64,000 nucleotides of DNA from Asanoa hainanensis (GTDB taxonomy: Bacteria; Actinomycetota; Actinomycetes; Mycobacteriales; Micromonosporaceae). Position numbers and translations under genes: made by a program. The stretch spans positions 248,001 to 312,000 of the forward strand of contig NZ_FZPH01000003.1 of NCBI RefSeq assembly GCF_900188485.1, given 5' to 3'. Below the pieces are notes generated by a model. The model searched no databases. It saw nothing but the letters and a program-made list of their open reading frames with translations, and had not been told where the DNA came from. The number at the start of each line of letters is the position of its first letter. The stretch's first letter is position 1. Positions 26,203-45,007 of this stretch are shown piece by piece.

Positions 26203-26239
26203 GACCTGTTCGTACCCCGGAGCCGGGTTGGTATGCGGA

Positions 26240-26566
26240 TCAGACGCGCGCTGCTGGACTGACCTGTGCCCGGGGCAGCCCCGCGACCAGCAGGTGCTCG
26301 GTCACGTCGGGCGCGGCGTCGCGCACGGTCATCGATATGCCGCTGTCGCTGGCCACGTCGGCCCCGGCGACCACGGCGCCGATCCCCTCGGGTTCGATGT
26401 GCCCGGCGCCACGGAGGTCGACGATCACCCGGGTCGAGTCGGTATGGCGGATCGCACGCACCAGCGCCGCTCGCAGCTCGGCTGCGTCGGTGGCACCCAC
26501 GTCGCCGCGCACTTCGACGACGACGACGCCGAGTTGGTCGCGCTCGGTGACGAGCACCGTACCCAC
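26240..26566 (-). CDS. STAS-domain protein lacking the phosphoacceptor Ser
   Basis: A 108-residue anti-anti-sigma-like STAS domain, GTG start, preceded by GGAGG seven bases upstream. The fold is clear (VVVVEVRGDVGATDAAELRAAL, then VIVDLRGAGHIEPEGIGAVV). At the usual D-S-S-G phosphorylation site the sequence reads E-P-E-G, so it cannot be switched by a SpoIIAB-type kinase; the Glu could mimic constant phosphorylation. It may bind a partner constitutively. Confidence 0.85.
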   Translation of the reverse strand: MGTVLVTERDQLGVVVVEVRGDVGATDAAELRAALVRAIRHTDSTRVIVDLRGAGHIEPEGIGAVVAGADVASDSGISMTVRDAAPDVTEHLLVAGLPRAQVSPAARV

Positions 26567-26651
26567 GGGGATACCTCCGGGTCGGCCGCATTTTCGGCGC
26601 CTTCACGGTATCCGTGCCGGCAAGCTCGCACCACCCACTGTTAGCTAGCCG

Positions 26652-26873
26652 TTAGAGCAAGGTATAGATCCCGTATCCGACGGCCGCGCCGCAGATGGCG
26701 AAGCAGAGGCTGGTGATGGCGATCCGGAGCGGGCTCGGGCGACCCGTCGACTCGCCGTCGGCGTCGGCCGGGCTGAGCACCCGGACCCCGACGGCGTACA
26801 GAACGATCACGCCGCCGCCCAGGAACAGCGCGGCCATCAGCACCGTGCCGAGGTCTCCCCAGGGAACGTTCAT
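26652..26873 (-). CDS. Small two-helix membrane protein coupled to Pit
   Basis: A 73-residue protein with two hydrophobic segments (about 9-31 and 50-70) separated by an acidic/Ser-rich loop (SPADADGESTGRPS). The ATG overlaps the stop of the phosphate transporter gene by four bases, so it is co-translated with Pit and may be a small accessory subunit. Proteins of this sort follow pit genes in other actinomycetes, but function is not established. Confidence 0.75.
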   Translation of the reverse strand: MNVPWGDLGTVLMAALFLGGGVIVLYAVGVRVLSPADADGESTGRPSPLRIAITSLCFAICGAAVGYGIYTLL

Positions 26874-28018
26874 CGCGCGTACCTCGATGTGACCGAAGGC
26901 TTGGGCTTGGGCTTGGGGGGCGACACCGGCTCGTCGTTGACGTTGTGCCGGTCGACCTTGTTGCGCCGCGACAGCAGGTAGAACGTCGTGGCCAGCGCGA
27001 CCAGCACTCCGGCCACGATGAGCACGCCAGCGGTCCCGCTGATCGCGACCCGGCCGGCCAGGGCGCCGATGGCGGCCGCCGCCGGCAGGGTCAGGCCCCA
27101 GGCGATCGCGATCCGGCCCGCGACGCCCCATTTGACCTCGGAGAGCTTCTTGCCGACGCCCGAGCCGATCACCGCGCCGGACGTGACCTGAGTGGTCGAG
27201 AGCGGGTAGCCGAGGTGCGAAGAGGCCAGGATGACCGTCGCGGCGCTGGTCTCGGCGGCGAAGCCCTGCTGCGGCTCGATCTTCGTGAGCCGGTGCCCGA
27301 CGGTACGGATGATCCGCCAGCCGCCGAAGTAGGTGCCCAGCGCGATGGCGAGACCGGAGGTGAAGATCACCCAGAGCGGTGGCCCGCTGTCCACACCCAG
27401 CACGCCTGCGGTGATCAGGACGAGCGTGATCACACCCATGGTCTTCTGCGCGTCGTTGGCACCGTGCGCCAACGACACCAGCGAAGCCGACACCACCTGG
27501 CCGTGCCGGAACCCTTCCCGGGTCCTGCGTCTGGCCGCCCGCCTGGTGATGGTGTAGAGGAGGAACATGCCGGTCGCGGCCACCGCGCCGGCGATGATCG
27601 GCGAGGCGATCGCCGGGATGATCACCTTGGTCACGACCGTCGCGAAGTTCACCGCATCACCACCCGCGGCGATCCAGGTGGCGCCGATCAGGCCGCCGAA
27701 CAGCGCGTGCGAGGAGCTCGACGGCAGGCCGACCAGCCAGGTGACCAGGTTCCACAGGATCGCGCCGACCAGGCCACCGAAGATCACCGCCGGCGTGATC
27801 TGTGCGTCGTCGACGAGGCCGCTGGAGATGGTTTTGGCCACCTGCACCGACAGGAACGCGCCCACCAGGTTGAGTACCGCCGAGATGGCGACGGCGACCC
27901 GGGGCCGCAACGCCTTGGTGGCGATCGACGTCGCCATCGCGTTGGCGGTGTCGTGAAAACCGTTGGTGAAGTCGAACGCCAATGCGGTGATGATGACGAC
28001 GATGACCAGCGTGTCCAT
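26870..28018 (-). CDS. pit: Inorganic phosphate transporter, Pit family
   Basis: A 382-residue low-affinity phosphate permease (PF01384). The duplicated family signature is visible: DFTNGFHDTANAMATSIATKAL near the N-terminus and SLAHGANDAQKTMGVI in the second half. About ten membrane segments are present, with the GFRHGQVVSASL cytoplasmic loop and a basic proline-rich C-terminal tail. It imports phosphate with protons or as metal phosphate. The Shine-Dalgarno GGGAGG lies directly after a small hairpin (28028-28042). Confidence 0.95.
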   Translation of the reverse strand: MDTLVIVVIITALAFDFTNGFHDTANAMATSIATKALRPRVAVAISAVLNLVGAFLSVQVAKTISSGLVDDAQITPAVIFGGLVGAILWNLVTWLVGLPSSSSHALFGGLIGATWIAAGGDAVNFATVVTKVIIPAIASPIIAGAVAATGMFLLYTITRRAARRRTREGFRHGQVVSASLVSLAHGANDAQKTMGVITLVLITAGVLGVDSGPPLWVIFTSGLAIALGTYFGGWRIIRTVGHRLTKIEPQQGFAAETSAATVILASSHLGYPLSTTQVTSGAVIGSGVGKKLSEVKWGVAGRIAIAWGLTLPAAAAIGALAGRVAISGTAGVLIVAGVLVALATTFYLLSRRNKVDRHNVNDEPVSPPKPKPKPSVTSRYAR

Positions 28019-28110: not shown

Positions 28111-28479
28111 TCAGCGGGCCATCCACCGTTCCGCGTCGGCGCGGCGGCGCGCCAGCATCCGCAGCACCACTCCGCCGGCGACGAGCAGCCCGCCGACCAG
28201 CGCGATCATCATGATCGCGGCACCGGTCCTGGGCAGGTCGCCACCACCACCGGGGTCGTCGTCCGGCGGTTCGGTCGAGGGCGGCGGCGTCGTGGGTGGC
28301 GGCGTGGTCGGTGTGGTGTTCGGGTTGGGCTCGATGCGCACGGTCAGGTCGACCCGGGCCCCGGCCGGCCCCGGCGTCGGCGCGACGACCGCGGCCCGCG
28401 CCGGCGTGGCGGGCGCGGCGGCGACGGCCGGCACACCGAGAACGGCGGCGGCCACCAGGACGACGGCAGCCCGGTTCAC
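28111..28479 (-). CDS. Small LPxTG-anchored protein, CscD-like
   Basis: A 122-residue precursor with a signal peptide (1-29), a short mature region, a Thr/Pro spacer (TPTTPPPTTPPP), and a complete cell-wall sorting signal: LPRTG (82-86), a hydrophobic span (87-108) and a basic tail (RRRADAERWMAR). The mature part is only about 50 residues, like the tiny LPxTG proteins (CscD) of Firmicute csc clusters. It overlaps the DUF916-like gene by four bases. It is presumably attached to peptidoglycan by a sortase, yet the only sortase homologue nearby has lost its active site. Confidence 0.8.
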   Translation of the reverse strand: MNRAAVVLVAAAVLGVPAVAAAPATPARAAVVAPTPGPAGARVDLTVRIEPNPNTTPTTPPPTTPPPSTEPPDDDPGGGGDLPRTGAAIMMIALVGGLLVAGGVVLRMLARRRADAERWMAR

Positions 28480-29525
28480 GGCGCCGTCGGGACGGCCTGG
28501 CCGGCACCGTCGAGGAACGTGGGCGCGGGACGCCGGCGGGCGCGGAGCAGGAAGATCCGGTACACCACCAGGGCGAGGACGACGAGCAGCAGACCGAGGA
28601 CCAGCCAGGGTACGGCGGTCGTGCCGGCCGCTCCGGAGACCGACGGCAGGGTCTCGCGGTTGGTCGCCGGGTTGAAGTCGACGGCGGTGGTCAGCCGGCC
28701 CGCCGGGAAGACCGACGAGAACTCCTGCCGCAACCGCAGCTCCGAGTCGGGCAGCAGTTCCGCGACGGTGATCGGGTCACTGCTGGCCAGGCGTACGCCC
28801 AACGGCCCGTCGACCCGCACCCGCACGGTGCCGGACAGCCGCACGTTGCCGTGGTTGGCGACCCGGTAGGTGACCGCCATCTTGCCGCCGGGCAGCGGGA
28901 TGATCGGGTTCTCGTAGTCGACGTCGACGGCGGTGACCGCGGCCGCCGGCTCGAGCGGCCCCGAGACCCGCAGGTAGATCCGGGCGGCGACCCGGCGCTC
29001 GACGTCGACGCGCTGGCCCTTCTCGTTGACCTGCTGCTCGGTGATCGAGGCGATGATGCCGCCGATGTGGTCACCGGGCGTCGCGCCGGCGGGCACGGAC
29101 AGCGTGAACGGCATGTCCGAGCGCTTGCCGACCGGCAGGGTGGTGCTCGCCTTGGACAGCTTAATCCAGGTGCCGACGCCGTCGGGCTTACGGTCACGGG
29201 GCAGCAGGGCGAAGCCGCCGTCCGCCGCGGTGAACGCGTCCGTCGCGTAGAGGTCCACGGTGAGCGGCTTGGTGCCGAGGTTGCTCACCGAGATCCAGTC
29301 GGTGATCGCCTCCTTGGCGTTGAGCTCGTAGTCGAACTGCTTGCGCCCCTTGGGCCCGGTCGGGCTGCCGGGCACGACCGTCCAGGTAGGACTCTCCTCG
29401 CGCCGGGCGGCCGGGGCGGCCGAGGCGGCCGGCAGCGAGCCGGAGGTGAGCAGCATCGCCGCCACGGCGACGAACACCCCGGCACGCCAGGCGCGTCGGG
29501 GTCCGTTGACAGTTCTGGTGTCCAT
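28476..29525 (-). CDS. DUF916/WxL-interacting-like membrane protein, CscA-like
   Basis: A 349-residue extracytoplasmic protein: signal peptide (1-36), two beta-sandwich domains and one C-terminal membrane helix (about 305-325) with a basic cytoplasmic tail. The first domain (VVPGSPTGPKGRKQFDYELNAK, DWISVSNLGTKPLTVDLYATDAF) matches the layout of the WxL-protein peptidoglycan-binding domain. The second (VTYRVANHGNVRLSGTVRV) resembles the WxL host-binding domain. In Firmicutes such proteins bind WxL proteins and the cell wall. It lies between a WxL-like gene and a small LPxTG gene. Confidence 0.75.
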   Translation of the reverse strand: MDTRTVNGPRRAWRAGVFVAVAAMLLTSGSLPAASAAPAARREESPTWTVVPGSPTGPKGRKQFDYELNAKEAITDWISVSNLGTKPLTVDLYATDAFTAADGGFALLPRDRKPDGVGTWIKLSKASTTLPVGKRSDMPFTLSVPAGATPGDHIGGIIASITEQQVNEKGQRVDVERRVAARIYLRVSGPLEPAAAVTAVDVDYENPIIPLPGGKMAVTYRVANHGNVRLSGTVRVRVDGPLGVRLASSDPITVAELLPDSELRLRQEFSSVFPAGRLTTAVDFNPATNRETLPSVSGAAGTTAVPWLVLGLLLVVLALVVYRIFLLRARRRPAPTFLDGAGQAVPTAP

Positions 29526-29612
29526 CTCGGCGGCTCCGGTTCGACGACGGTGGTACGTGGAACGGCGGAGGTGCCGCGGGCCGCGACACCTCCGCCGGTT
29601 GACACGGGCCGA

Positions 29613-30809
29613 TCAGGCCAGGGTCAGGGTCAGGGTCGCCGCGTACTCACCCGGTGCCACGTCGTCCGGGATCGTCAGCGTCAGGCCGGCGTCGCAGGTG
29701 AACGTGCCGGCGCTGGCGCCCGAGGCGGCCGAGCAGAGGGTGCGGGTGTCGCCGAGGTCGGCGGCGGCACCAGCGGTGACCGCGCCCGAGCCCGAGACCT
29801 TGGCGGCCGACGGGGTCCAGGCGAGCTTGCTGTTGGCGATGGTGTTGGTGCCCTGGGCGAAGTCCTCGAGCTGACCGGTGAGCGACCAGCCGACGTTGGT
29901 GCCGCGCAGGTCGGTCACGGTCGCCTTCGGCAGGGTGCCGAGGGCGGTGCCACCGACGACGCCACCGGACAGCGAGGTGGTCGGCGCCGCGACGGCCAGG
30001 CTGAACGCGCCCGGGTCGATCGGGGCGAGGATCTCGACGTCGGCCGACGGGCCGGTGGTCTGGCCCGGCGCGATGGTGAACGCCGCCGCGGTCGACACGG
30101 ACGGCTTGAACGCGGTGGCGTCCGCCGGCGTGAAGGCCGCGGTGAACTGGTAGGTGCCCACCGGCAGCGCGGTGGTGGCGAAGGTGGCGACGCCGTTGGC
30201 CACCGGCGCCGAGCCGATCACCGTGGTGCCGCGCTTGAACTCCACCGTGCCGGTGGCGGTGTTGGGCGTGACGTTGGCCGTGAAGGTGGCCTCCTCGCCG
30301 CGCTCGATGCCGCCGGCCGGGCCGACCGACAGGGCGGTCGTGGTCGCCTCGGCGACCGGGATCCGCCACTGGTCGCCGTTGACGACGATCGAGGTGCGGA
30401 ACTCGTCGACGTGCCGGCCCTCGGTCAGCGAGTAGCACTCGACGATGACCCACCACTCACCGGAGGCCGGCGCGACGCCGCCCAGCGCGGTGGTGAAGGA
30501 CCGGTTCGAGTGGACCGTGATCGGCTCCTCGTCGAACCCGCCGCCGCCGAGCGCGACCGCGAGGTTGCTGTAGGGACCGCCGGGGCGCCCGACCCGCAGC
30601 GACGCGTTCTCGCCGAACCCGGTCGGGCACGCCGGGCTGGTGGCCGTGGCGAACATCGGGGTGTCGTTCACACTGCCGCTCTGCTGCGACAGCGTGACCT
30701 CGCCCAGCGAGGCGGCCTGGGCCGGGCTGGCGATGCCCGCCAGGACGCCGGCCGTGATGGTCGCCGCACCCAGCAGCGCGGCCGCGCGAGCGAACACACG
30801 CTTGCTCAT
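29613..30809 (-). CDS. Secreted protein: CPTGFG/ECYS domain, Ig-like domain, WxL-like domain
   Basis: A 398-residue secreted protein. After the signal peptide (1-32) comes a roughly 115-residue domain with Cys61 (ACPTGFGENA) and Cys125 (VECYSLTEG), shared with proteins at 32701 and 42908. Next is a bacterial Ig-like repeat (about 155-247, TATGTVEFKRGTTVIG). The C-terminal part (about 255-398) has VTDLRGTNVGWSLTG and ends in Ala-Thr-rich strands; the D-x-R-G...GW-x-L pattern is that of the WxL cell-wall domain. It has no membrane anchor. RBS GAGAGGAAG precedes the start. Confidence 0.75.
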   Translation of the reverse strand: MSKRVFARAAALLGAATITAGVLAGIASPAQAASLGEVTLSQQSGSVNDTPMFATATSPACPTGFGENASLRVGRPGGPYSNLAVALGGGGFDEEPITVHSNRSFTTALGGVAPASGEWWVIVECYSLTEGRHVDEFRTSIVVNGDQWRIPVAEATTTALSVGPAGGIERGEEATFTANVTPNTATGTVEFKRGTTVIGSAPVANGVATFATTALPVGTYQFTAAFTPADATAFKPSVSTAAAFTIAPGQTTGPSADVEILAPIDPGAFSLAVAAPTTSLSGGVVGGTALGTLPKATVTDLRGTNVGWSLTGQLEDFAQGTNTIANSKLAWTPSAAKVSGSGAVTAGAAADLGDTRTLCSAASGASAGTFTCDAGLTLTIPDDVAPGEYAATLTLTLA

Positions 30810-30943: not shown

Positions 30944-31747
30944 TCACCCGAAGCGACCGTTCACGTAGTCGTTCGTCCGTTCGTCGCGCGGCGAGTCGAA
31001 CATGACGTCCGTCGGCCCGTGCTCCACGATCGCGCCCGGGGTTCCGTGCGAGGCGAGGAAGAACGCGCAGAGGTCCGAGACCCGGGCCGCCTGCTGCATG
31101 TTGTGCGTGACGATCACGATGGTCACCTCGCCGGCGAGCTCGGCGATGGTCTCCTCGATCCGCCGCGTGGACGTGGGGTCGAGGGCCGAGCAGGGCTCGT
31201 CCATCAGCAACACCCGCGGGCGTACGGCCAGCGAGCGCGCGATGCAGAGGCGTTGCTGCTGGCCGCCGGAGAGCGCGCCGCCGGGCGAGCGGAGCCGGTC
31301 GCGCACCTCTTTCCACAGCCCGGCCCGGGTCAGCGTCTCCTCGACGATGTCGTCCCGGGTCGAACGGGAGGCGCGCGTCCCGGTCAGTTTCAGGCCCGCC
31401 AGCACATTGTCGAAGATGGACATCGCCGGGAACGGGTTGGGCTTCTGGAACACCATCCCGACCTGCCGGCGTACGTCGGTGACGCGGCGCTCCGACGAGT
31501 ACAGGTCGGTGTCGTCGAGCAGCACTTCGCCGGCCAGGGACGCGCTCGGCACGAGCTCGTGCATCCGGTTGAGGATCCGCAGGAAGGTCGACTTCCCGCA
31601 GCCGGACGGGCCGATCAGCGCGGTCACCTTGCCGGCCGGCATGGTCAGCGAGACCCGGTCGAGCACCTTGTGGTCGCCGAACCAGGCCGAGATCGCCCGC
31701 GCGTCCAGGGTCCCGCCGATCGGCGGGGCGGTCAGCGTCTGGGTCAC
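30944..31747 (-). CDS. pstB: Phosphate ABC transporter ATP-binding protein
   Basis: A 267-residue ATPase of the high-affinity Pst importer. Walker A GPSGCGKST, Q-loop GMVFQKPNPFP (characteristic of PstB), signature LSGGQQQRLCIARSLAV, Walker B LLMDEPCSALDP, switch His in VTHNMQQAARV. It is separated by about 8 kb from its permease genes pstCA, with surface-protein genes between. It starts 16 bases after the sortase-like gene, so it is probably on that transcript. Confidence 0.96.
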   Translation of the reverse strand: MTQTLTAPPIGGTLDARAISAWFGDHKVLDRVSLTMPAGKVTALIGPSGCGKSTFLRILNRMHELVPSASLAGEVLLDDTDLYSSERRVTDVRRQVGMVFQKPNPFPAMSIFDNVLAGLKLTGTRASRSTRDDIVEETLTRAGLWKEVRDRLRSPGGALSGGQQQRLCIARSLAVRPRVLLMDEPCSALDPTSTRRIEETIAELAGEVTIVIVTHNMQQAARVSDLCAFFLASHGTPGAIVEHGPTDVMFDSPRDERTNDYVNGRFG

Positions 31748-31763: not shown

Positions 31764-32714
31764 CTACAGCAGGTTGGGCAGCAGGCGCGCGGCCTGGTCG
31801 GCGACGGCGAGACCGAGGAAGGCGAGCACCGGCGCGCCGATGATCCAGGCGTGCCAGCCGCTCAACCTGGTGCGCAGCCAGGTGACCGCGATCGCGGCGA
31901 GCAGCAACGCCTGACCCCACAACATCGCCCAGAGCCAGCCGGACGAGTCGGTGGCCATCACCCGTTCGGCCTTGGGCAGCGCGCCCTCGCCGAACCGGCT
32001 GGCGGGCGTGGGTTGCGCGGGCGAGAGCAGTTCGGCGTCGACGTAGACGGTGCCGTCGGGGTCGAACGCCCGGCCGTGCCCGGTGACCAGGGTGAGCCGG
32101 CCGGCGCCGGGCGCGAGCGCCGGCGGCTCCGGGTCGCCAGGTCGGCGGATGCCGGTCACCTTGTACTCCGCGCGGCCCTGGCCGGTGGTGGCGTAGATCG
32201 CGTCATCCTTGATCAGCATCTCGAGGTCCCGGAACGGCGCGCCGTACGCCGACTGCCGTCCCATGAGGACACTCGTGCCGGACTGCCCCGGCAGCACGGT
32301 GTCGCGCCGGTGGCCCGGCCCCGCGCGCAACACGTCGCCGCTGGTGCCCTCGACGACCACCGCGTTCAGGCCGATCCCCGGGATCTCCAGCCAGGTCACC
32401 GGGCTGCCCGGCGAGACGAGCTCCTCCGGCCGGGGCGTGCCGTCGGGCGCGAACGTCACCCGGTACTGCCCGACCGGCGCCGTGCCCAGCTTCAGCTCGG
32501 CGCGGAAGTCGGCGAACAGGGTCTGCTGGTCACGCTGGTACTGCAGCCACGACACCGCGGTCAGGTGCGCGATCAGGCCGATGGCCAGCACGGCGACGAT
32601 GGTGAACGCGGTGCCGACGACCTGCAGCCCGAGGTTCGGCGGCCGTGACGGCGGAGGCACCGCCGGCACGGAGGCTGCCGCCGGTGCCGGTGCCTGGAGC
32701 TCAGTTGTCGTCAT
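31764..32714 (-). CDS. Sortase homologue lacking catalytic His and Cys (pseudoenzyme)
   Basis: A 316-residue membrane protein with the class E/D sortase layout: an N-terminal membrane helix (about 31-53), a beta-barrel (about 105-232; WLEIPGIGLNAVVVEGTS, GPGHRRDTVLPGQSGTSVLMG), and two further C-terminal helices. Where active sortases have GH(R/D) the sequence is MGRQSAYG (Arg153). Where they have TLxTC it is TLVTGHG (Gly212, codon GGG), and the downstream catalytic Arg is also missing. The domain is otherwise well preserved and the frame is intact, so it looks maintained rather than decayed. It overlaps the LALTG protein gene by 14 bases. A binding or scaffolding role is inferred. Confidence 0.82.
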   Translation of the reverse strand: MTTTELQAPAPAAASVPAVPPPSRPPNLGLQVVGTAFTIVAVLAIGLIAHLTAVSWLQYQRDQQTLFADFRAELKLGTAPVGQYRVTFAPDGTPRPEELVSPGSPVTWLEIPGIGLNAVVVEGTSGDVLRAGPGHRRDTVLPGQSGTSVLMGRQSAYGAPFRDLEMLIKDDAIYATTGQGRAEYKVTGIRRPGDPEPPALAPGAGRLTLVTGHGRAFDPDGTVYVDAELLSPAQPTPASRFGEGALPKAERVMATDSSGWLWAMLWGQALLLAAIAVTWLRTRLSGWHAWIIGAPVLAFLGLAVADQAARLLPNLL

Positions 32715-34350
32715 CGCGGCGGTCCAGCCAGGGCACCGCCGGCAGCAACCGTCGACGGCGACCGGTGGTCATCGCCAGCGCGCCGACGCCGACCAGGCCC
32801 GCGCCGACCATCGCGACACCGACGACCGGGGCGCCGGTCAGGGCCAGGTTGCCCCCGTCGTCGTCGTCCGGATCGTCCTCGCCGGGATCATCGCCGTCCG
32901 GATCGTCGTCGCCTGGGGTCTCGGGGCCGATCGCGTCGATCACGAAGTTCACCGGCGCCGACGTGGAGGTCGCGAACGTGGCCGTGTCGGTCGGCTGGAA
33001 CTCGGCGGTGAAGACGTAGCTGCCGGGCGGCAGCGTGCCCAGGTCCAAGGTCGCCACGTTGGCCGCGACGGCCTTCGGCTCACCCAGCGGGTCCGGGCCG
33101 CTCCTGAACTGGACGACGCCGGCAGTGCCGGCCGGCCCCACGGTCGCCGTCAGCGTGATGGCGGTGTTCTCCGGCTGCGGGCTCAGCTTGCTCGGGCTCA
33201 AGGTGACCGTGGTGGCCTGCTTCACCGGCTCGCCGACCTGGTAGTCCGGCAGCGACGTGGTCGACGGTCCGAAGCCTTCCCCGGGTACGAACGTCGCGGT
33301 GATCGTCAGTTTGCCACCCGGCAGTTCAGTGGTCTTCGTGGTCGCCACGTTCTGGTCGGGTGACACCTCGGCACCGATCGGAACATCGGTCGGGTCATCG
33401 CCCCGCCGGTACGAGAACGCGACCTTGCCCGCCGCGCCCGCCGGCTCGATCGTCGCCGCGATGGTCACCTCCGCGCCCACGTCGGCGCCGTTCTTCGGCG
33501 TGACCTCGATCGCGACCGCGGTCGGCATCGGATCGGCGGTCTGGCGCACGTTGAGCTTGACGCGGTTGCTGGTCGACTCCTGGTACTCACCGATCGGGGT
33601 GAAGACGGCGGAGAGCTCGTGGAACTGGCCGGACTCGTTGACCGGGATGTCGCTCGTCGTTAGTTCCGCCTTGCCGTCGGCCACCGCGACCTTGCCCATC
33701 GACTGCTTGGCCGCTTCGCCCGGCACGCCGTAGAAGAACTCGACCTCTCCGCCGACGCCCGCCGGCGTCACCGCCGCGGTCAGCGTCACCGGCACGTCGT
33801 CCAGCACCGACCAGCTCGGCGAGACGGTCAGCGTGGTGAAGGTGAGGTCCTTGCCGGGGCACTCGGTGCCGACCGCCCACCGGGCGCCGCAAACCCTGAT
33901 CGGGGTGCGGAACTCGTCCGTGTTCCGGCCCTCGGTGAGGCTGTAGCACTCGATGATGACGACCCAGTTGCCCTCTGCCGGCGCCACGCCACCCATCGCC
34001 GTGGTGAACGACCGGTTGGGCGCCGTCTCGCCCGCGAACTCGACGTCCGCCTGGTCGAACCCGCCACCGCCGAGCGAGACCGCGAGGTTGTTGTACGGAC
34101 CGCTGGGAGCTGGACCGACGCGCAACGAGGCGTTCTCGCCGAAGCCCGCCGGACAGGCCTTCGACTTGGCTGACGCGAACATGGGTGTGTCGGTCACGTA
34201 GCCCTGGGTCTGCGACAGCTCGACCTCACCGAGGCTGGCGGCGCTGGCGCCGCTGGTCGCGATCACCAGCGTCCCGCCCGCGATGCTGGTGACGGCGGCC
34301 GCGAGCAGAGCCGCTCGGGCGACCAACCGGGTCAGACGACGCCTGTGCAT
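32701..34350 (-). CDS. LALTG-anchored surface protein with CPxGFG/ECYS domain and Ig-like repeats
   Basis: A 549-residue precursor: signal peptide (1-38), then the CPxGFG/ECYS domain (about 39-160; Cys66, Cys135). Three bacterial Ig-like repeats follow (about 168-265, 275-375, 385-475), each with an AGxAGxVxF-type strand. An Asp-rich spacer (DDDPDGDDPGEDD) leads to sorting signal LALTG (502-506), a hydrophobic span and RRRR. LAxTG is the form preferred by actinobacterial class E sortases. It heads a three-gene unit with the sortase homologue and pstB, so a phosphate-responsive cell-wall protein is inferred. Confidence 0.82.
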   Translation of the reverse strand: MHRRRLTRLVARAALLAAAVTSIAGGTLVIATSGASAASLGEVELSQTQGYVTDTPMFASAKSKACPAGFGENASLRVGPAPSGPYNNLAVSLGGGGFDQADVEFAGETAPNRSFTTAMGGVAPAEGNWVVIIECYSLTEGRNTDEFRTPIRVCGARWAVGTECPGKDLTFTTLTVSPSWSVLDDVPVTLTAAVTPAGVGGEVEFFYGVPGEAAKQSMGKVAVADGKAELTTSDIPVNESGQFHELSAVFTPIGEYQESTSNRVKLNVRQTADPMPTAVAIEVTPKNGADVGAEVTIAATIEPAGAAGKVAFSYRRGDDPTDVPIGAEVSPDQNVATTKTTELPGGKLTITATFVPGEGFGPSTTSLPDYQVGEPVKQATTVTLSPSKLSPQPENTAITLTATVGPAGTAGVVQFRSGPDPLGEPKAVAANVATLDLGTLPPGSYVFTAEFQPTDTATFATSTSAPVNFVIDAIGPETPGDDDPDGDDPGEDDPDDDDGGNLALTGAPVVGVAMVGAGLVGVGALAMTTGRRRRLLPAVPWLDRRDDDN

Positions 34351-34375
34351 CGCTGGCGACTCCTTCAAGTCGAAG

Positions 34376-34420: not shown

Positions 34421-35596
34421 TTAGCTGTTGGCCTTGAGGTCGGTCGCGCCGCAGGCGGCGTTGAGCAGGTCGACACCGGCTGTGCGCTTGCCGAAGCCGA
34501 AGAGCTCGATCAGGCCGCGGTTGGTGCCACCGACGTTGACCGTGGCGGTGCACAGCGCCGAGTCGGCGCCGGTGAACGCGGCGTCGATCGCGGGGCTGCT
34601 GAGCTTGCTGGTCGGCACGACGTTGTAGACGTCGCGCCGCAACGGGAACGCGGTGTTGAGCACGCCACCGACGATCGGCTGCTGGATGGCCTGGCCGGGC
34701 ATCCGCATGCCGGTCAGCGCGGCCTGCCCACGCCGGTCGGTCACGGTGACGCCGGTGGCCGTCGCGATGGTGGCGGCGTTGGTCTGGGCGATGAACTGAC
34801 CGGCCGAGAACGGCACGATCTGGTTCAGGTTGTTGTTGAGGACGGTGCCGTCGTGCTCCTGGACCCGCTCGAGGTTCGGCTGGGCCGGGGTGCCGGCGTT
34901 GCCGTCGGTGTCCCGGGCGAGGCAGGAGTAGTCACCGAGGTTGATCTCGGCCTCGGTGATACCCATCTTGCCGGTCCAGAACTGCCAGGTGCCCGACGCG
35001 GCCTGGATCATCCGCGGCGTCACCGGGTTGCCGGCGATCGCCGTGTCGAAGCACTTGTAGACCCGCTGCACCTGGGCGAACGAGATGTTCGCCGGGATGT
35101 CGCCGTTGACGTTGCGGGCCAGGCCCACGGCGTCCACGCCGAACGGGATGTAGGTGTAGTTGCCGGCGGTAGCGGGCGGCGTCGGGCCGCCGTAGGACGA
35201 CGAGCGGGCGAAGTCGGCACAACCCTGCACCGCGGCGCCGTTGAAGAAGCCGGGGCCGCCGTGCGTGCCGCCCAGGTTCTCGCCCTCCGACGCGCGCAGC
35301 GCCTGACGACCCGCACCCGAGCCGTCCGGCCGCGGGAACACGCAGTTGGTCGCCTTCGTCTTGATCGTCGAGGTGCCGCGGGCGTCCCAGGAGGCGACGA
35401 CCTTCGTGCCGCCCGGAGCGTACGCGTTGCCGAAGCCGTTCATGACGTCCTGCGTGGTGTCCGAGCCGACACCGGTCAGCGACCGGTAATCGGTCGCCGA
35501 GCTCGGGTCGGCCATGGCCGGTCCAGCCATGGCAGCGGCTCCAAGCGCGGCGGCCAGGAGGACGGCGCCCACCCGACCGACGTTCTTGACCTTCAT
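34421..35596 (-). CDS. Secreted PstS-like periplasmic-binding-fold protein
   Basis: A 391-residue secreted protein with an Ala-rich signal peptide (1-29, cleavage after MADP-type region) and no lipobox or membrane anchor. TDYRSLTGVGSDTTQDVMNGFGNAY parallels the first phosphate-binding loop of PstS (G-x-G-S/D-T). FGVDAVGLARNVNGDIPANIS and QRVYKCFDT match the hinge and second-lobe strands. It binds phosphate or a related anion by inference. RBS AAAGGGAG precedes the ATG. It has its own upstream region with PHO-box-like half sites and a strong terminator behind it. Confidence 0.8.
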   Translation of the reverse strand: MKVKNVGRVGAVLLAAALGAAAMAGPAMADPSSATDYRSLTGVGSDTTQDVMNGFGNAYAPGGTKVVASWDARGTSTIKTKATNCVFPRPDGSGAGRQALRASEGENLGGTHGGPGFFNGAAVQGCADFARSSSYGGPTPPATAGNYTYIPFGVDAVGLARNVNGDIPANISFAQVQRVYKCFDTAIAGNPVTPRMIQAASGTWQFWTGKMGITEAEINLGDYSCLARDTDGNAGTPAQPNLERVQEHDGTVLNNNLNQIVPFSAGQFIAQTNAATIATATGVTVTDRRGQAALTGMRMPGQAIQQPIVGGVLNTAFPLRRDVYNVVPTSKLSSPAIDAAFTGADSALCTATVNVGGTNRGLIELFGFGKRTAGVDLLNAACGATDLKANS

Positions 35597-35752: not shown

Positions 35753-35803
35753 GGGGGCCGGACCGTTTACTCCACGATGGACTGTCATGACCGTCCGGCC
35801 CCC
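35753..35803 (-). terminator. Large inverted repeat over the stop of the 867-residue protein gene
   Basis: Perfect 11-base arms GGGGGCCGGAC and GTCCGGCCCCC with a 29-base loop that contains the stop codon. The distal arm lies inside the last coding codons. Confidence 0.5.
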
Positions 35804-38388
35804 ATGCGTTTGAGGATGGGCCCGACGATCCCGCCGACGAGCCCGACCACCAGCACGATGACGAGCAGGTTGCGCATCATCCCCAGTGGACCGCCAGGCG
35901 TGGTCGCCGAAGCCCGCTCGATCGGTGGTGCGGGCGAGGCCGCGACCGGTGCGAGCGAAGGCGGCAGGCCGCCGGCCGGAACGCTGGGCGGCGGGGTGAG
36001 CGCCGAGGCGGGCGGTGCGGTCGGCGAGCCGATCTCGAGCTGGGCCGCCGCGTTCATGGTCTGCGCCCGGAGGTCCTGCGGTAGCGGCGCGTACCCCTCG
36101 GGCAGCTGCCCGCGGCCGAGGCCCGGCTGCTGCCCCTCGCCGGCGATCTGGCGGAGCAGCGCGGCGTAGTCCTTGCGCGCCTCCGCCTGCTCCCAGAGGT
36201 TCCCGACCGCGTAGTTGATCATCGCCAGTGGGTACGCGCCCGGGGTCTTCCAGGCGACCGTCGGGTCGATCACCTTCACGCCGGGCACGACCGAGCTCTG
36301 CGCGGTCGCTGCGGCCTTCTGCAGCGCGGCGTCCGTCGGCGTGCGGCAGTCGACACCCGCGAGCAGCTTCTTCTTGGTGTCGCGCAGCGGCTTGCACAGC
36401 TGTGCGGGGAACAGGCCGTAGCGCGCCGCCGACGCCGACTCGGTGATCGACATGGCGAACCGGTAGCCGGGCGCCCGCCGCGGCACCGGGTCGTAGTTCG
36501 GCGGCAGCGTGAGCTCGTTGAACACCGGCAACCGACCCTTGGTGTCGGCCCGCAGCGTCTGCAACGCCGCTTCGGACATGCTGCCCAGGTACGGCCTGAG
36601 GTTCTGCGTACAGTGCGGATAGGAGATGTTCTCGAAGTTGACCTCTGTGCAGACCGGGTCGGCCTTGGGGAACGTGTCGAGGCCGGTGTTGATGAGGCCC
36701 AGGTAGTTGCGGTTGATCACGATGCCGTTCTCGTCCGGCTTGCCCTCGAGGAACGCGCCGGCCTCAGGGTCGGCCAGCAGCCACCGCCACACCTGACGGC
36801 TGCCTGCGGAGTTGCCGAGCGAGACCATCAGGCCGTCGAGGGTCGCCGACTGGGTCCGGTCCCACCAGGCGAAGATCGGGTTGATGACGCGGAACTCGGG
36901 ATCGTCCCGGATCGAGTCCGGATTCTTCGCCTTCTCGCCGAACGCCTTGGGATCCTTCGCGTCGTTGCGGTAGCTCTGGGTCAGCAGCTTGGCGATGAGC
37001 CGTGGCGTCAGCTTGACGTCCTTGAGCGCCGACCCGGCCAGCGCCAGCACCTCGGGAGGCACCTTCCCGTCGGCCTGGTTGGGGTCGACGATGTTGGCGT
37101 CGACGTTCATCGCCAGCTCGATGCCGCTCAACGTGGCCGGGGCATGCACCACGGGCGGCTGCCCCAACCCCGGCACCACCGGGTCGGCGGTGAAGACGAG
37201 TCCGGGCGAGCCGACGCCGGTCAGCAGCACCTGCCGGGCCGCCTCACCGTCACCGATCGCCGAGTAGCCGATCAGCGGGCCGTTGTTGGCGCAGACGCCG
37301 GGCTGCCAGGCGGTGACCGCCTCGGCCACCATCTCGCTTCCCGCGGTGCGCCGCTCCGCCGCGCCGAGCGGGCAGAGGCCGGTCACCGGCCGGAACTCGA
37401 GCGGCACGACGATGCGGTTCACCCAGTTGGCTGGCAGCAACGGGCTGCCGTGCACGGCTCCCTCGGCCGGGTCGGCCGGGACACCGTCGTACGGGTTGTT
37501 GTGCCCGCGCGGGACGATCACCAGTGAGCACTTCGGCCCGGCGACCATCTTGCCGCCGCGCTCCACCGTCGGAGCGCCACAGCCGAGATCCGGGGCCCGA
37601 CCGACGTCCTGGAGCTCGAAAACCGCACGCCCGGTGCCGTCGCCCGACGTGAGTGCCCAGGGAACCTCGTTGGTCGACGGCTCGGCGAACGACTCGCGGA
37701 GCACGTCGAGGTCGGTCTCCTCGGTTTCGTTGCCCGTGGCGGGGTTCGTAATCGTCCGGTACGGCTTGTACGAGCTGCCGTCGCGGAACCGGACCCCCTG
37801 GACCGTGCGGAACGGGATCATCTTCGCGTCGGTCCGCAGCGTTCCCGGCGCGTCCCGCTCGTCGACGTCCTGGGTCTTCGGGTCGTCCACCTGGGCCGGT
37901 GCGACTTCCTTCGGATCCCGCAACGGATAGTTCGCGAGACCCAACGTCAGCGAGCGCGAGTTCGCCGCCTGCGACGTGGCCCCGGAGCGGCCGGTGAACG
38001 GCGACGGCAGGTTCATGCCGAACTGGCAGGTCTCCCGGAACGCCAGACCGTCGGGGTCGTGCTTGTCGTCCGGGTCGCCCCAGCACTGCATGATCTGGAG
38101 GTAGTCAAAGCCGAGCGACCGGGTCCGGGGCGACGGCACGCCGCCGGTCCAGGACACCTCGATCGCCTGGTTGGTCAGGTCGCGGGTCTGCGAGACCGTG
38201 ACCGCGAGATTCGAGAAGTCCTCGATGGTCCCGTTCTTGCGCCCGTGCACGGTCACCGCCGAGCCCGTGTCCGCCCCGCCGGACTGCGCGTCCTGCGCCG
38301 CCAGGGTCGGTGTCGGGTCGCCCACGCCGAGCAGCGCGAGCCCGGCCGCCAGGGCCAGCACCAGGCCGGCCGCGCTGACGCGGCTCAT
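35785..38388 (-). CDS. Large membrane-anchored PstS-like companion protein
   Basis: An 867-residue extracytoplasmic protein with a signal peptide (1-30) and a C-terminal membrane helix (about 839-858, LLVIVLVVGLVGGIVG) ending in a short basic tail. The N-terminal half (TIEDFSNLAVTVSQTRDLTNQ, DYLQIMQCWGDPDD) is of no family I can name. The second half has PstS-like stretches (KLTPRLIAKLLTQSYRND, TPGAYPLAMINYAVG, APLPQDLRAQTMNAAAQL). About ten Cys suggest disulfides. ATGA overlap with pstS fixes the start at MSRVSAAG and implies equal production with PstS. Possibly a docking or capture partner of the Pst complex. Confidence 0.75.
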   Translation of the reverse strand: MSRVSAAGLVLALAAGLALLGVGDPTPTLAAQDAQSGGADTGSAVTVHGRKNGTIEDFSNLAVTVSQTRDLTNQAIEVSWTGGVPSPRTRSLGFDYLQIMQCWGDPDDKHDPDGLAFRETCQFGMNLPSPFTGRSGATSQAANSRSLTLGLANYPLRDPKEVAPAQVDDPKTQDVDERDAPGTLRTDAKMIPFRTVQGVRFRDGSSYKPYRTITNPATGNETEETDLDVLRESFAEPSTNEVPWALTSGDGTGRAVFELQDVGRAPDLGCGAPTVERGGKMVAGPKCSLVIVPRGHNNPYDGVPADPAEGAVHGSPLLPANWVNRIVVPLEFRPVTGLCPLGAAERRTAGSEMVAEAVTAWQPGVCANNGPLIGYSAIGDGEAARQVLLTGVGSPGLVFTADPVVPGLGQPPVVHAPATLSGIELAMNVDANIVDPNQADGKVPPEVLALAGSALKDVKLTPRLIAKLLTQSYRNDAKDPKAFGEKAKNPDSIRDDPEFRVINPIFAWWDRTQSATLDGLMVSLGNSAGSRQVWRWLLADPEAGAFLEGKPDENGIVINRNYLGLINTGLDTFPKADPVCTEVNFENISYPHCTQNLRPYLGSMSEAALQTLRADTKGRLPVFNELTLPPNYDPVPRRAPGYRFAMSITESASAARYGLFPAQLCKPLRDTKKKLLAGVDCRTPTDAALQKAAATAQSSVVPGVKVIDPTVAWKTPGAYPLAMINYAVGNLWEQAEARKDYAALLRQIAGEGQQPGLGRGQLPEGYAPLPQDLRAQTMNAAAQLEIGSPTAPPASALTPPPSVPAGGLPPSLAPVAASPAPPIERASATTPGGPLGMMRNLLVIVLVVGLVGGIVGPILKRMGAGRS

Positions 38389-39980
38389 CGCCGGTCTCCA
38401 CGCGACCGCCACCGCTGCGCCAGCAGCGGCGGCACCAGCACGAGACCGAGCACAGCCAGTCCGGCGATCAGCATCGCGGTCTGCTGGAGTCCCCAGCCGG
38501 GCCGCCCGGTCAGGTCGACCGGCACCGCTCCGATCAGCTCCCCGTCGCCGCTCCCGCCGCCACCGCTCGCCCCGCCCGGACCCGCGCTCGCGGAGGACGA
38601 CGGACCCACGGTCGCGCCGTTCTGCGGCGTGTTCCCCTGGCTGCCGCCGCCACCGCTACCGCTGCACCGCGCGGCCGCCAGCACCGGCGTTTCGACCTTC
38701 GCGCCCGCCGTACCCGTGGAGGTCTGCTTCGAACCTCGCTTGTCACAGGGTGACGGCTGTGGCGCCGTCTTGGCCAAGGTGTTGGAGCCGTCGCTGGAGA
38801 ACGTCGGGTTGTTGCACGAAGCCAGCGACCCGCCGTGCTTGACCGCTCCCGGGATCTTCGCCACCTGCGCGAAGCCGGCCTCGACCAGGTTCTTCGGCAG
38901 CGGCGAGTAGCCGAGCACGTCGGCCTGTTGCTGGCCCTCGCAGAGGAAGTAGTTGGCGAACTCGCCGAGCGTGAAGCCCTTGTCGGTGTTGATGCCGCGG
39001 CCGGTCTCGGTCGGCACGATCATGTACGAGTACGACGACAGCGGATAGACCCGCGGGTCCGTGAAGCTGTAGACGTCGTCGAGGATCTGGGTGAGATAGT
39101 CGCGCGATCCCTTGTTGTTGTTGATGCGCGCCTTGGTCAGCGCCACCGCCACGTTCTGCGCGGTCGGCTCGACGTAGTAGTCGGCGGCGTTGCGCACCTT
39201 GACGACCGGGAACCGGGCACCGATCGCGTACGAGTACTCGACGTACGTGATCGCGCCTTCGGCGTTGGCCTGCTGCACGTAGCCGGTGACACCGGTCGAG
39301 CCCTGCTGGCCGACGAACCCGTCGGACGACCGGAACGGGTACGCGGACGTGATTCCGCACGGCGCCTTCTTGCCGAATTTGGCGCAGTACGCGTTCCAGA
39401 TGCTCGGATACTGCTTGCTCATCCAGAGCGTGAACTGCGCGCTGGTGCCGGAGCCGTCCTGCCGCACCACCGGCACGATCCGCCGGTTGGGCAACGCCAG
39501 CCCCGGGTTGTCGGCCTTGATCTTCGGGTCGTTCCAACGCTTGATCGCCCCGGTGAAGATGCTCGCCACCACGTCACCGGACAGGCGCAGGTTGGTCACC
39601 TGCCGGCCGGCGATCTTCAGGTTGTACATGAACGCGGTGCCACCGGCCACGATCGGCATGTACGCGAACTTGCGCGGTGGTGCCGTGTCCACGCCGCCGA
39701 AGGCGTCCCGCAGGCCGTACGGGATCTCGGAGACACCGAAGTCCACAGTGGCGTTGCGGAACTGGTTGCGGCCGTCCGTCGAGCCGGTCGGCTGGAAGTT
39801 GACGTACAACTGGCGCTGCAGCACGTTGCGCCGCCAGTTGTCGATCGCGTTGGAGCTCCACGTGGATCCCGCGCCGTTGATCGGCACGCGCCGGGGCGCG
39901 GCGGCGACTGCCGCCTGTGCGGGAACGAGCGCCGTGACGGCGACCGCGACCGCGGCGGCGACCAGGGCTCTGACGTTCAT
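38385..39980 (-). CDS. pstS: Phosphate-binding protein PstS with C-terminal membrane anchor
   Basis: A 531-residue phosphate receptor. Binding motifs are INGAGSTWSSNAIDNWR (first lobe) and VVRQDGSGTSAQFTLW (second lobe), with FVGQQGSTGVTGYVQQ. Unlike most Gram-positive PstS proteins it has no lipobox. Instead it has a Gly/Ser-rich linker and a C-terminal helix (about 502-520) with a basic tail, making it about 150 residues longer than usual. It is four-base coupled to pstA upstream and to the 867-residue companion downstream. Confidence 0.92.
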   Translation of the reverse strand: MNVRALVAAAVAVAVTALVPAQAAVAAAPRRVPINGAGSTWSSNAIDNWRRNVLQRQLYVNFQPTGSTDGRNQFRNATVDFGVSEIPYGLRDAFGGVDTAPPRKFAYMPIVAGGTAFMYNLKIAGRQVTNLRLSGDVVASIFTGAIKRWNDPKIKADNPGLALPNRRIVPVVRQDGSGTSAQFTLWMSKQYPSIWNAYCAKFGKKAPCGITSAYPFRSSDGFVGQQGSTGVTGYVQQANAEGAITYVEYSYAIGARFPVVKVRNAADYYVEPTAQNVAVALTKARINNNKGSRDYLTQILDDVYSFTDPRVYPLSSYSYMIVPTETGRGINTDKGFTLGEFANYFLCEGQQQADVLGYSPLPKNLVEAGFAQVAKIPGAVKHGGSLASCNNPTFSSDGSNTLAKTAPQPSPCDKRGSKQTSTGTAGAKVETPVLAAARCSGSGGGGSQGNTPQNGATVGPSSSASAGPGGASGGGGSGDGELIGAVPVDLTGRPGWGLQQTAMLIAGLAVLGLVLVPPLLAQRWRSRGDRR

Positions 39981-41212
39981 GTGCTGACCTCATCGTCGCG
40001 GTTGGTGACTCTGGCTCGTTCGCGGCCGGCGAACCGCACCGCGTCGCGATAGGACCGCCCGGCCCGACGCCGTCGCTGGCCCCGGCCCAACTGCCCCGCG
40101 GGGCGGCCGCCGATGATGCGGGCCACCGCGAACAGGAAGAGCACGAGGAACATCAGGACGGCCGCCGCGCCGAACCCGCGCGCGATCATTCCCGCGTCGG
40201 GCCGGGTGACGGAGTTGAAGACGAACAACGGCAGCGAGATCTGCGGTTCCTGGAACGGGTTCGCGTTCGTGTACGCCGTGACGCCGGAGGTGAGCAGCAC
40301 CGGCGAGGTCTCGCCGATGCCGCGCGCGGTGCCCAGGATGATCGCGGTCATCAGGCCCGACTTGGCGGTCGGCAGCACCACGTACCAGACCGTGCGCCAC
40401 TGCGAGCCGCCCAGCGCCAGCGAAGCCTCGCGCAGCGTCCCGGGCACCAGCCGGATCACCACGTCGGCCGCCCGGATCACGATGGGCAGCATCATCACGC
40501 TGATCGCGAGCGACGCGGCGAAGCCGGACTTGCCGACCGCGAGCCAGCGCAGCGCCGCGGGCAGGTCGTCCTTGGCCTGGTTGAGCAGCAGGATGACCGA
40601 CGAGTAGACGAACAGGCCGGCGACCACCGAGGGCAGCGCGGTCATCGCCTCGACGATCGTGCGGACGAACCGGCTGAACCGACCTGGCAGCTCGGCCAGG
40701 AAGACCGCGGCCGTGACGCCGAGCGGCACGGTGACCGCGAGCGCGATCGAGATCTGCTCGAGCGTGCCGAGGATGGCGTGCCGGATGCCGCCGATCGACA
40801 GCGGCTGCAGCGGCCCCGCGTCGCGCATGTCCTCCGTGTAGAAGTTGCGATGGCCGAGGGCGTCCAGGCCGCGATAGACGGTGAACACCACGACGACCAC
40901 GAGCGCGATCAGCATGAGCACGGCCAGGCCGTGCACCAGGACCGCCGCGATCCGGTCGCGTACGGTCGGCCCGCGCTCGTCGAGCCCGACCAGCAGCCCG
41001 TAGAACGCGACGAAGAAGACGAAGGCGAGCACGACGAAGCCGAGCGTGCCGTCGAACGGCGCGAGCCGGGTGAACAGCAGCGCGGTCAGCGCGAGCGAGG
41101 CCCAGGCGGCGCCGAGGGCGACGTACACGTCGGCCTTGCGCGTCGATCCGGTCGAGCGGCGCACCTCGTGGCCGGCGTCGGGCGTGCGCTCCGGGAGCGT
41201 GGTCGTCGTCAT
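39977..41212 (-). CDS. pstA: Phosphate ABC transporter permease PstA
   Basis: A 411-residue inner-membrane permease. It has an N-terminal extension with three hydrophobic segments, then the binding-protein-dependent transport core: ITVPLGVTAAVFLAELPGRF and the EAA-type loop TLREASLALGGSQWRTVWYVVLPTAKSGL. It pairs with PstC to form the phosphate channel. One base separates it from pstC and it overlaps pstS by four bases. It is longer than E. coli PstA (about 296) because of the N-terminal helices and a basic C-tail. Confidence 0.95.
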   Translation of the reverse strand: MTTTTLPERTPDAGHEVRRSTGSTRKADVYVALGAAWASLALTALLFTRLAPFDGTLGFVVLAFVFFVAFYGLLVGLDERGPTVRDRIAAVLVHGLAVLMLIALVVVVVFTVYRGLDALGHRNFYTEDMRDAGPLQPLSIGGIRHAILGTLEQISIALAVTVPLGVTAAVFLAELPGRFSRFVRTIVEAMTALPSVVAGLFVYSSVILLLNQAKDDLPAALRWLAVGKSGFAASLAISVMMLPIVIRAADVVIRLVPGTLREASLALGGSQWRTVWYVVLPTAKSGLMTAIILGTARGIGETSPVLLTSGVTAYTNANPFQEPQISLPLFVFNSVTRPDAGMIARGFGAAAVLMFLVLFLFAVARIIGGRPAGQLGRGQRRRRAGRSYRDAVRFAGRERARVTNRDDEVST

Positions 41213-41213
41213 C

Positions 41214-42272
41214 TCAGGCCTCGCTCGACGCGCCCGACCGGCTGCGGCTGATGATCACGCCGGCCAGCAGGTTCACGACCAGGGTCATGGCGAACAGCAC
41301 GAGCCCGGCGCCCATCAGCGCGGCGACGCCGATCGCGGTCGACTCCTGGTAGCGCGAGGCGATCAGGGCGGAGATCGAGCCGCCGCCGTTCTGCAGGATG
41401 TGCGGTTGGATGACGAAGCCGATCGAGATGATCAGGACGACGCCGATGGTCTCGCCGAGCGCGCGACCGAGGCCGAGCATGGTCGCGCCGATCATGCCGC
41501 CCCGGCCGAACGGCATGACGACGGAACGGATCATGCCCCACTTCGTGGCACCCAGCGCGTACGCGCCTTCCCGCTCCCCCGGCGGCGCCTGGGCGAACAC
41601 CTCGCGCATCACCGAGGCGATGATCGGGGTCACCATCATCGCCACCACGATCCCGGCGATGAACGTCGACGAGGTCAGCCGGCTGGCGCTCGCCTCGGGG
41701 TCGCGGGGCTGGTACTCGTCGACCGAGAGCAGCGGGATCCAGCCGAAGTAGGTGGTCAGCCAGCGCGGCAGCCCCTCGCCCTGGTTGCCGACCACCAGCA
41801 GGTGCGGCTGGAGCAGGAAGAAGCCCCAGATGCCGTAGACGACGCTGGGCACGGCGGCCATCAGGTCGACCAGGTTGACGAGGAACGGCGCGATCCGGCG
41901 CGGCGCGTACTCGGAGATGTAGAGCGCGGTGCCGATCGCCAGCGGCAGCGCGATGGTGATGGCGACCAGGGCGATCAGGATGGTGCCGACGAGCACGCCG
42001 GCGACGCCGAAGTGGTTGCCCTCGGTGTCCCAGTCCTGCGTCGTGAGAAAGCCCCAGCCGGCCTTGCGCACCGCGGGCCAGGCCTGCGCGCTCAGGAACA
42101 GCCCGACCAGCAGCATGATGACCAGCACGGCGGAGCCCGCGACCCGGGCCACGCCCCGGAAGACCCGGTCGCTAGTGGGCAGCCGGGTCACGACCGACCG
42201 CGGCCGGTCCTCCGGTCCGTCCGGAGTGGACGGTGTCACCGTCGTCGGACGGGTTTCTTCCAGCAGGTCCAT
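41214..42272 (-). CDS. pstC: Phosphate ABC transporter permease PstC
   Basis: A 352-residue permease with six core membrane helices. Conserved parts are LPLAIGTALYISEYAPRRI, LMAAVPSVVYGIWGFF (PstC hallmark) and the EAA loop GEREGAYALGATKWGMIRSV, followed by GRALGETIGVVLI. Its ATG shares one base with the stop of the preceding small gene (TGATG), so translation is coupled. Confidence 0.96.
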   Translation of the reverse strand: MDLLEETRPTTVTPSTPDGPEDRPRSVVTRLPTSDRVFRGVARVAGSAVLVIMLLVGLFLSAQAWPAVRKAGWGFLTTQDWDTEGNHFGVAGVLVGTILIALVAITIALPLAIGTALYISEYAPRRIAPFLVNLVDLMAAVPSVVYGIWGFFLLQPHLLVVGNQGEGLPRWLTTYFGWIPLLSVDEYQPRDPEASASRLTSSTFIAGIVVAMMVTPIIASVMREVFAQAPPGEREGAYALGATKWGMIRSVVMPFGRGGMIGATMLGLGRALGETIGVVLIISIGFVIQPHILQNGGGSISALIASRYQESTAIGVAALMGAGLVLFAMTLVVNLLAGVIISRSRSGASSEA

Positions 42273-43615: not shown

Positions 43616-43685
43616 ACGCTCGGTGTAGTCAGCGCCGACGACCCTCGGCTCTCGCGAAGGCGCGCGCCAGACGGCGCGTAGGTAA

Positions 43686-44940: not shown

Positions 44941-45007
44941 GAGGAACAGTCGACCCGACCGGTCCCAACATGTCGATACATGTGGATGGACTGATGGGAA
45001 ACTCCGG

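Follow-up and report, generated by a model that had tools for sequence, protein, structure and literature searches.

A protein with the sortase fold, in which all three catalytic residues are replaced, is encoded inside a Pst-like transporter operon of Asanoa hainanensis. It represents a real, conserved group of pseudosortases (psSrt) wedded to such operons; the loss of the triad and the linkage to pst genes are solid, and the mechanism is put forward as a hypothesis. Because the dead centre is conserved beside phosphate-type transporter genes in many actinobacteria, psSrt is probably a non-enzymatic part of the transporter. Our preferred reading, to which we assign a probability of roughly 0.6 on the basis of sequence comparison, is that psSrt would be a class-E-type sortase that now serves, anchored in the membrane and without catalysis, as a docking subunit of a Pst-like transporter tethered to the cell surface.

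Sortases are regarded as enzymes and drug targets. A match to Pfam family PF04203 is easily labelled a sortase, and psSrt would be a warning that some annotated sortases cannot be enzymes. A cysteine-less group tied to a transporter operon across Actinomycetota would likewise constitute a new job for the sortase fold, and would give the well-studied Pst type of transporter a further subunit.

Genomic context and operon structure

The window, i.e., the whole stretch of 64,000 nucleotides analysed here, contains the following run of genes, listed in the order of transcription and followed by the codons at the former catalytic positions of psSrt.

41214..42272 (-): pstC, start of the run (TIGR02138 243.4 bits, cut-off 196.45)
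39977..41212 (-): pstA (TIGR00974 200.3 bits, cut-off 193.45)
38385..39980 (-): pstS with a C-terminal TM (TIGR00975 204.7 bits, just under the cut-off of 205)
35785..38412 (-): 875-aa PstS-like protein (PBP875) with a C-terminal TM (PstS profile match, probability 98.1)
34421..35596 (-): secreted PstS-like binding protein (PBP2; PF12849 E 0.00038, 20.8 bits, cut-off 27)
32701..34356 (-): surface protein with Big_3_5 Ig-like repeats and an LALTG sorting signal
31764..32714 (-): psSrt, the pseudosortase, 316 aa, ATG start
30944..31747 (-): pstB, Pst-like ATPase (TIGR00972 339.4 bits, cut-off 343.2)
29613..30809 (-): WxL-like surface protein with an Ig-like domain (PF13731 25.1 bits, cut-off 25, borderline)
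28476..29525 (-): DUF916-type WxL-interacting protein (PF06030 36.1 bits, cut-off 27.3)
28111..28479 (-): small LPRTG-type anchored protein (PF00746 19.7 bits, cut-off 20; NF053819 23.4, cut-off 47)
32256..32258 (-): codon 153 (CGG): Arg in place of the catalytic His (MGRQ), read directly
32079..32081 (-): codon 212 (GGG): Gly in place of the catalytic Cys (TLVTG), read directly
32049..32051 (-): codon 222 (ACC): Thr in the column of the catalytic Arg, read directly

Gaps between these genes, which all lie on one strand in the order pstC-pstA-pstS-875 aa-PBP2-LALTG protein-psSrt-pstB-WxL-DUF916-small LPRTG protein, range from -28 to 188 nt. The original prediction described a clean frame within a coupled unit between an LALTG surface protein and pstB, and this is what the sequence contains: psSrt has no internal stop, overlaps the LALTG gene by 14 nt and ends 16 nt before pstB.

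In its gene content the operon corresponds to a PstSCAB system, with PstA and PstC above their curated cut-offs and PstB and PstS just below theirs. Its PstS retains the RxDGSGT stretch found in solved PstS proteins, which the alignment places at the phosphate site, and phosphate is the putative cargo. The 875-aa protein has no Pfam family above cut-off; PBP2 matches the PstS profile with a probability of 92.6 and has no solved relative at E 0.1. A search with the PhoP repeat of the PHO box gave 6 matches in the window, where 5.3 were expected, and hence no sign of enrichment. In five Asanoa genomes (G002 left out), two strong pstC copies each were found (273.4-295.6 bits); a third copy (243.1-244.5 bits) is present in the three genomes with psSrt and absent from G004 and G005.

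Several neighbouring genes deserve mention in their own right. Upstream of pstC, 43720-45126 encodes what may be a secreted phosphoesterase, with an RR-type signal-like start, a DUF3604 match and a PHP match that falls short of its cut-off. The product of 42908-43618 has an N-terminus that resembles, by eye, those of the LALTG and WxL-like proteins, together with a hydrophobic C-terminal stretch and no Pfam family. Downstream of the operon, a CYTH-CHAD protein and a PHO4-family phosphate transporter (24715-28018) lend the neighbourhood a phosphate theme. The WxL-like, DUF916-type and small LPRTG genes in a row (28111-30809) would form a WxL-type cluster in an actinobacterium.

Fold and membrane topology

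The topology of psSrt comprises TM1 (~36-54), a conserved juxtamembrane stretch, the sortase barrel (~103-231) and a C-terminal two-TM hairpin (~259-277, 287-305) that ends in a conserved LLPN. Hydropathy displays three peaks, at 36-54, 259-277 and 287-305, and a low-confidence AlphaFold model has helices at 28-75, 257-283 and 287-311.

The match to PF04203 (E 1.7e-16; score 60.5 bits, cut-off 26.6) places the protein in the sortase superfamily, with an alignment that stops at profile position 108 of 125, ahead of the Arg strand. Class E is the best-scoring of the NCBIfam sortase classes, yet the score for NF033747 (59.5 bits) lies well below its cut-off of 160. A profile of psSrt and 39 relatives, searched against solved chains, had the Streptomyces avermitilis sortase E (5go6/5go5) as its best match, and a single-sequence search of solved chains had SrtF of Corynebacterium diphtheriae (5uus).

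AlphaFold models, with three sequences behind each, reached a pLDDT of 47.7 for the whole protein and 57.8 for the barrel alone. In a Foldseek search with the barrel-only model the best 50 of 313 rows were all sortases; the top match was Streptococcus agalactiae SrtA (3rcc), and several SrtE were among these 50. Since TM-scores are near 0.5 and rmsd is about 6-10 A, support from the predicted structure is at the level of the fold: the barrel-only model speaks for a sortase fold and for nothing finer.

The catalytic site

Direct reading bears out the predicted MGRQ with Arg153, TLVTG with Gly212 (GGG) and the missing Arg on the next strand. An active sortase has catalytic His, Cys and Arg, where psSrt reads Arg153, Gly212 and Thr222. 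The window protein contains no cysteine at all, and its histidines lie only at 50, 135, 213 and 288.

A. hainanensis (genome of 8.64 Mb in 44 contigs) has six further sortase-domain matches. Relatives of psSrt share 92% identity in Asanoa ishikariensis (L047) and 74% in A. iriomotensis (L048). The dN/dS values against three Asanoa orthologues, 0.23, 0.30 and 0.40, indicate purifying selection on psSrt. Entropy among 59 Micromonosporaceae psSrt is lowest, of the segments measured, at the C-end (0.46 bits) and in the former active-site strand 148-161 (0.82), compared with 1.21 for the whole barrel.

The Cys site of the other three Asanoa orthologues reads Ala (GCG), so that Gly212 is local to the window protein. 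The dead site as such is common to its relatives and the gene is under purifying selection, and we reject the explanation of a local mutation.

A conserved group of pseudosortases

From 258 ORFs of the fetched loci, 176 distinct sortase-like sequences were kept: 36 with His/Cys/Arg, one with Asp/Cys/Arg (L212) and 139 without a catalytic Cys. We define the psSrt group as the 137 distinct sequences that are Cys-less and score above 130 bits with the profile; the absence of Cys in this group is thus partly a matter of definition, which does not apply to the linkage counts and the tree. Its His site is occupied by Arg in 128 members, Lys in five and His in four, and its Cys site by Ala (106), Ser (22), Thr (4), Gly (3) or Val (2). 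The Arg column holds Arg in one member only (L219), and the barrel is entirely free of Cys in 136 of the 137. Two arginines, Arg137 (86%) and Arg206 (91%), are enriched in the group, and the GHRTTYGAPF-like strand of relatives has become GRRAAYGGPF in many members. The suggestion that the Arg and Gly substitutions might be conserved accordingly holds for Arg at the His site (128/137) and fails for Gly at the Cys site (3/137), where Ala prevails (106/137).

A quick tree was built without the catalytic columns from 89 of the 176 sequences (the 37 with Cys, every Cys-less one below 250 bits, the window protein and 35 others drawn at random). It is unrooted, and its resolution is limited by few columns and 39 open forks. 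On this tree 50 of the 52 Cys-less rows cluster with an SH-aLRT of 89, and the Cys-less label requires 2 changes compared with a shuffled mean of 28.6. In four members (L072, L073, L074, L077) the His site reads GH and the Cys site Ala; L072, the only one of them placed on the tree, nests inside the psSrt group, and for this reason its His looks secondary.

The sequences L217, L218 and L222 share TM1, the barrel and the LLP end with psSrt, and differ from it by a full triad and the absence of pst genes nearby. Two C-terminal hydropathy peaks are present in L217 and L222, and a single one over threshold in L218. Because the triad-bearing L217 and L222 share both hairpin and LLP end, the C-terminal hairpin seems to predate the loss of the triad, an order that the unrooted tree does not settle. 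L219 has kept Arg, lost His and Cys, and is pst-linked, with no 875-aa homologue seen at its locus; on its residues it could be an intermediate on the way to the full pseudoenzyme. The series from hairpin-sharing triad relatives through the Arg-retaining L219 to the full pseudoenzyme would be a natural record of enzyme loss.

The group is widespread. Among Asanoa genomes four of six carry psSrt, and among 354 Micromonosporaceae genomes 52 do (21 of 44 genera, 59 places, E 1e-12 or better), with matches that begin at query residue 1-44 and end at 315-316. An even sample at the level of the order had matches at 1e-10 in 94 of 298 genomes, many of them ordinary sortases matched in the barrel only, and 34 of the 298 match through query residue 313 or beyond. 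Matches at 1e-15 were found in 57 of 394 genomes of the class sample and 60 of 396 of the phylum sample, in both mixed with ordinary sortases. Full-length Cys-less members occur outside the window's class in the phylum sample (e.g., L190, L191), and the group therefore extends past Asanoa and Micromonosporaceae into other classes of Actinomycetota. None of 12 viral stretches that matched a pattern codes for a psSrt relative, and plasmid records gave a single partial match (38% of the query), inside a record 11.85 Mb long.

Association with pst genes

Neighbourhoods were scanned with profiles made from the window's proteins and fetched relatives. We call a locus pst-linked if a pst gene scoring above 250 bits lies within 10 kb, and wide-flanked if at least 6 kb are available on both sides. 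Among wide-flanked loci, 79 of the 83 without the Cys are pst-linked compared with none of the 16 that bear the triad; with short flanks the counts are 47 of 56 (the window's own locus included) and none of 20. The four unlinked wide-flank loci are L052, whose two pstB fragments narrowly miss the threshold at 248 and 193 bits, L129, a psSrt group member with no pst gene nearby, and L265 and L268. L212 is likewise not pst-linked.

The triad set consists of search matches and the sortases of the window's genome, and includes some near-copies (orthologues across Asanoa genomes). No pst gene occurs in any of the six G000 control stretches, four of which lie outside the 36-sequence triad set because none of their ORFs matched the psSrt profile. 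An intact His/Cys in the same locus, which would have pointed to a local mutation, was sought and not found: none of the 36 triad sequences (16 with 6 kb on both sides) lies near pst, and all 126 pst-linked sortase-like sequences are without the catalytic Cys. Together with a His kept in only 4 of 137 members and with purifying selection, this strongly supports the view that the protein is selected as a pseudoenzyme.

The order of the genes differs between loci, and in 73 of the 83 with wide flanks every pst-type gene shares the strand of psSrt. Where the distance to pstB was measured, its first ATG or GTG in frame falls between -4 and +37 nt of the psSrt stop codon at 56 of 62 loci. Homologues of the 875-aa protein occur in 79 of the 83 at a threshold of 60 bits, with scores of just 61-71 bits in six loci of one family (f15), and DUF916 homologues in 56. 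LPxTG/LAxTG signals were found in 20 of the 83 Cys-less and in none of the 16 Cys-bearing loci by a screen of stop-to-stop ORFs within 9 kb under a single rule set, which may miss some.

Co-occurrence follows the same pattern. A query made of residues 1-360 of the 875-aa protein matches (E 1e-10) in 47 of the 354 Micromonosporaceae genomes, and all 47 are among the 52 with psSrt (Fisher p 2.6e-53, a value that ignores kinship). Of the remaining five psSrt genomes, G101, G105, G106 and G128 carry an 875-aa homologue beside psSrt by profile (412-599 bits), and none was seen by profile on the short contig of G100. Linkage and co-occurrence are no proof that the proteins form a complex, and the loci, being related, do not count as independent cases.

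Possible functions of psSrt

The original prediction proposed binding either to the phosphate uptake complex or to sorting signals. Its first half is strongly supported at the level of gene linkage (79/83); LALTG/LPRTG binding as a general role is not supported, with such signals found in 20 of 83 loci. We suggest that the ancestor was a sortase whose extracytoplasmic barrel lay between an N-terminal TM and a C-terminal TM hairpin, and which would have lost Cys, His and Arg and been retained in many Actinomycetota as a subunit without catalytic function in an additional Pst-like ABC transporter. The hairpin would be positioned in the membrane next to PstC/PstA, and the barrel would dock the membrane-tethered PstS and 875-aa protein near the permease without transpeptidation. 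The former active-site strand, the least variable part of the barrel among the segments measured, now has a basic residue, and the WxL, DUF916 and anchored proteins, found in many but not all loci, would fix the assembly to the wall.

How the tethered proteins might be held is suggested by their tails, which by eye consist of long linkers and a hydrophobic C-terminal stretch in both PstS and the 875-aa protein. Among the PstS-type tails from the fetched loci, 47 of 68 contain the element DPx(T/S)G, compared with a mean of 1.5 and a maximum of 6 in shuffles; its density is 12.5 per 10,000 aa compared with 0-2.6 in the nine other products. It is an LPxTG-like pentapeptide with Asp for Leu, opposite the His-to-Arg change, and we tentatively consider, as an unlikely option, that the dead basic groove holds it uncut. 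Against this option, DPx(T/S)G is absent from the window's own PstS and from the three other Asanoa PstS listed (L047, L048, L086); it sits in Gly/Thr-rich linkers, some variants are Cys-bracketed as in a simple turn, and the related sequences are not independent. In the tails of 875-aa-type proteins, [VLI]P..G..P occurs in 26 of 94 (shuffle mean 3.0, maximum 8). This VPxxG-like element lies in proline-rich linkers, by eye mostly of window-family relatives, and is a lead only.

Alternatively, the basic dead site might bind phosphate, a phosphodiester or another anion and serve as sensor or gate of the Pst-like transporter. Arg or Lys at the His position in 133 of 137 members, the enrichment of Arg137 and Arg206, the phosphate-site stretch of the PstS partner, and the PHO4-family and CYTH-CHAD genes nearby are all compatible with such a site. 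The models, however, are too poor to bring the arginines together and the neighbours in the window may be there by chance, and we consider this role improbable.

Sorting-signal binding is a weaker reading, because LPxTG/LAxTG was found in just 20 of 83 loci. Here the dead barrel would bind the signals of neighbouring proteins and pass them to, or shield them from, true class E sortases. The LALTG and LPRTG proteins adjoining psSrt in the window, the lack of such signals in the Cys-bearing wide-flank loci and the conserved former active-site strand fit this idea, whereas the ORF screen shows no such protein in 63 of the 83 loci, against 79 with pst genes and likewise 79 with the 875-aa protein. 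The b6/b7 stretch is moreover shorter (median of 26 residues compared with 30 in Cys-bearing relatives), and we doubt that signals are held in this way.

The low entropy around the former active site could also be expected of an enzyme that is still active, either by drawing on residues in another part of the chain or through a different chemistry. This is highly unlikely given a window protein without Cys, a Cys-free barrel in 136 of 137 members and Arg in the Arg column of a single one. A decaying relic or sequencing error, for which Gly212 might speak as it differs from the Ala of other Asanoa orthologues, is refuted by conservation: matches reach the C-terminus in 52 of 354 family genomes, in open frames, with dN/dS of 0.23-0.40.

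Comparison with known systems

Our literature search, mostly of open-access sources with longer result lists seen in part, yielded no description of psSrt. The term "inactive sortase" is used in two Lactococcus papers, and "degenerate sortase" in one Ruminococcus paper. The docking subunit proposed here shares its barrel with the class E sortases, among them SrtE1 of Streptomyces coelicolor (5cuw) and the enzymes of S. avermitilis (5go5/5go6) and T. fusca (9iok). SrtE1 has the catalytic residues His251/Cys320/Arg329, as given in PMC5148588, whereas psSrt has all three replaced, lies in a pst operon and scores below the NCBIfam cut-off for class E.

A second, separate Cys-less pair (L265 and L268, family f97) has Phe/Tyr at the His site and Thr at the Cys site. 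His and Cys are lost as in psSrt; the pair differs in that it keeps Arg, forms its own branch of the tree and has no pst genes nearby.

The genes downstream of psSrt and pstB resemble the WxL gene clusters (WxL with WxLIP/DUF916) described in PMC10599100 in that a WxL-like, a DUF916-type and a small anchored protein occur together. What sets them apart is their connection to a pst-like operon and their actinobacterial host, together with a WxL match that is borderline.

The standard Pst transporter has four components according to PMC7866108, and the word sortase is absent from the main text of that paper. As in the PstSCAB importer, homologues of PstA, PstB, PstC and PstS are found together in the psSrt operon. 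By contrast, this operon is a third, lower-scoring copy, and it includes a TM-anchored PstS, an 875-aa PstS-like protein and a member with the sortase fold.
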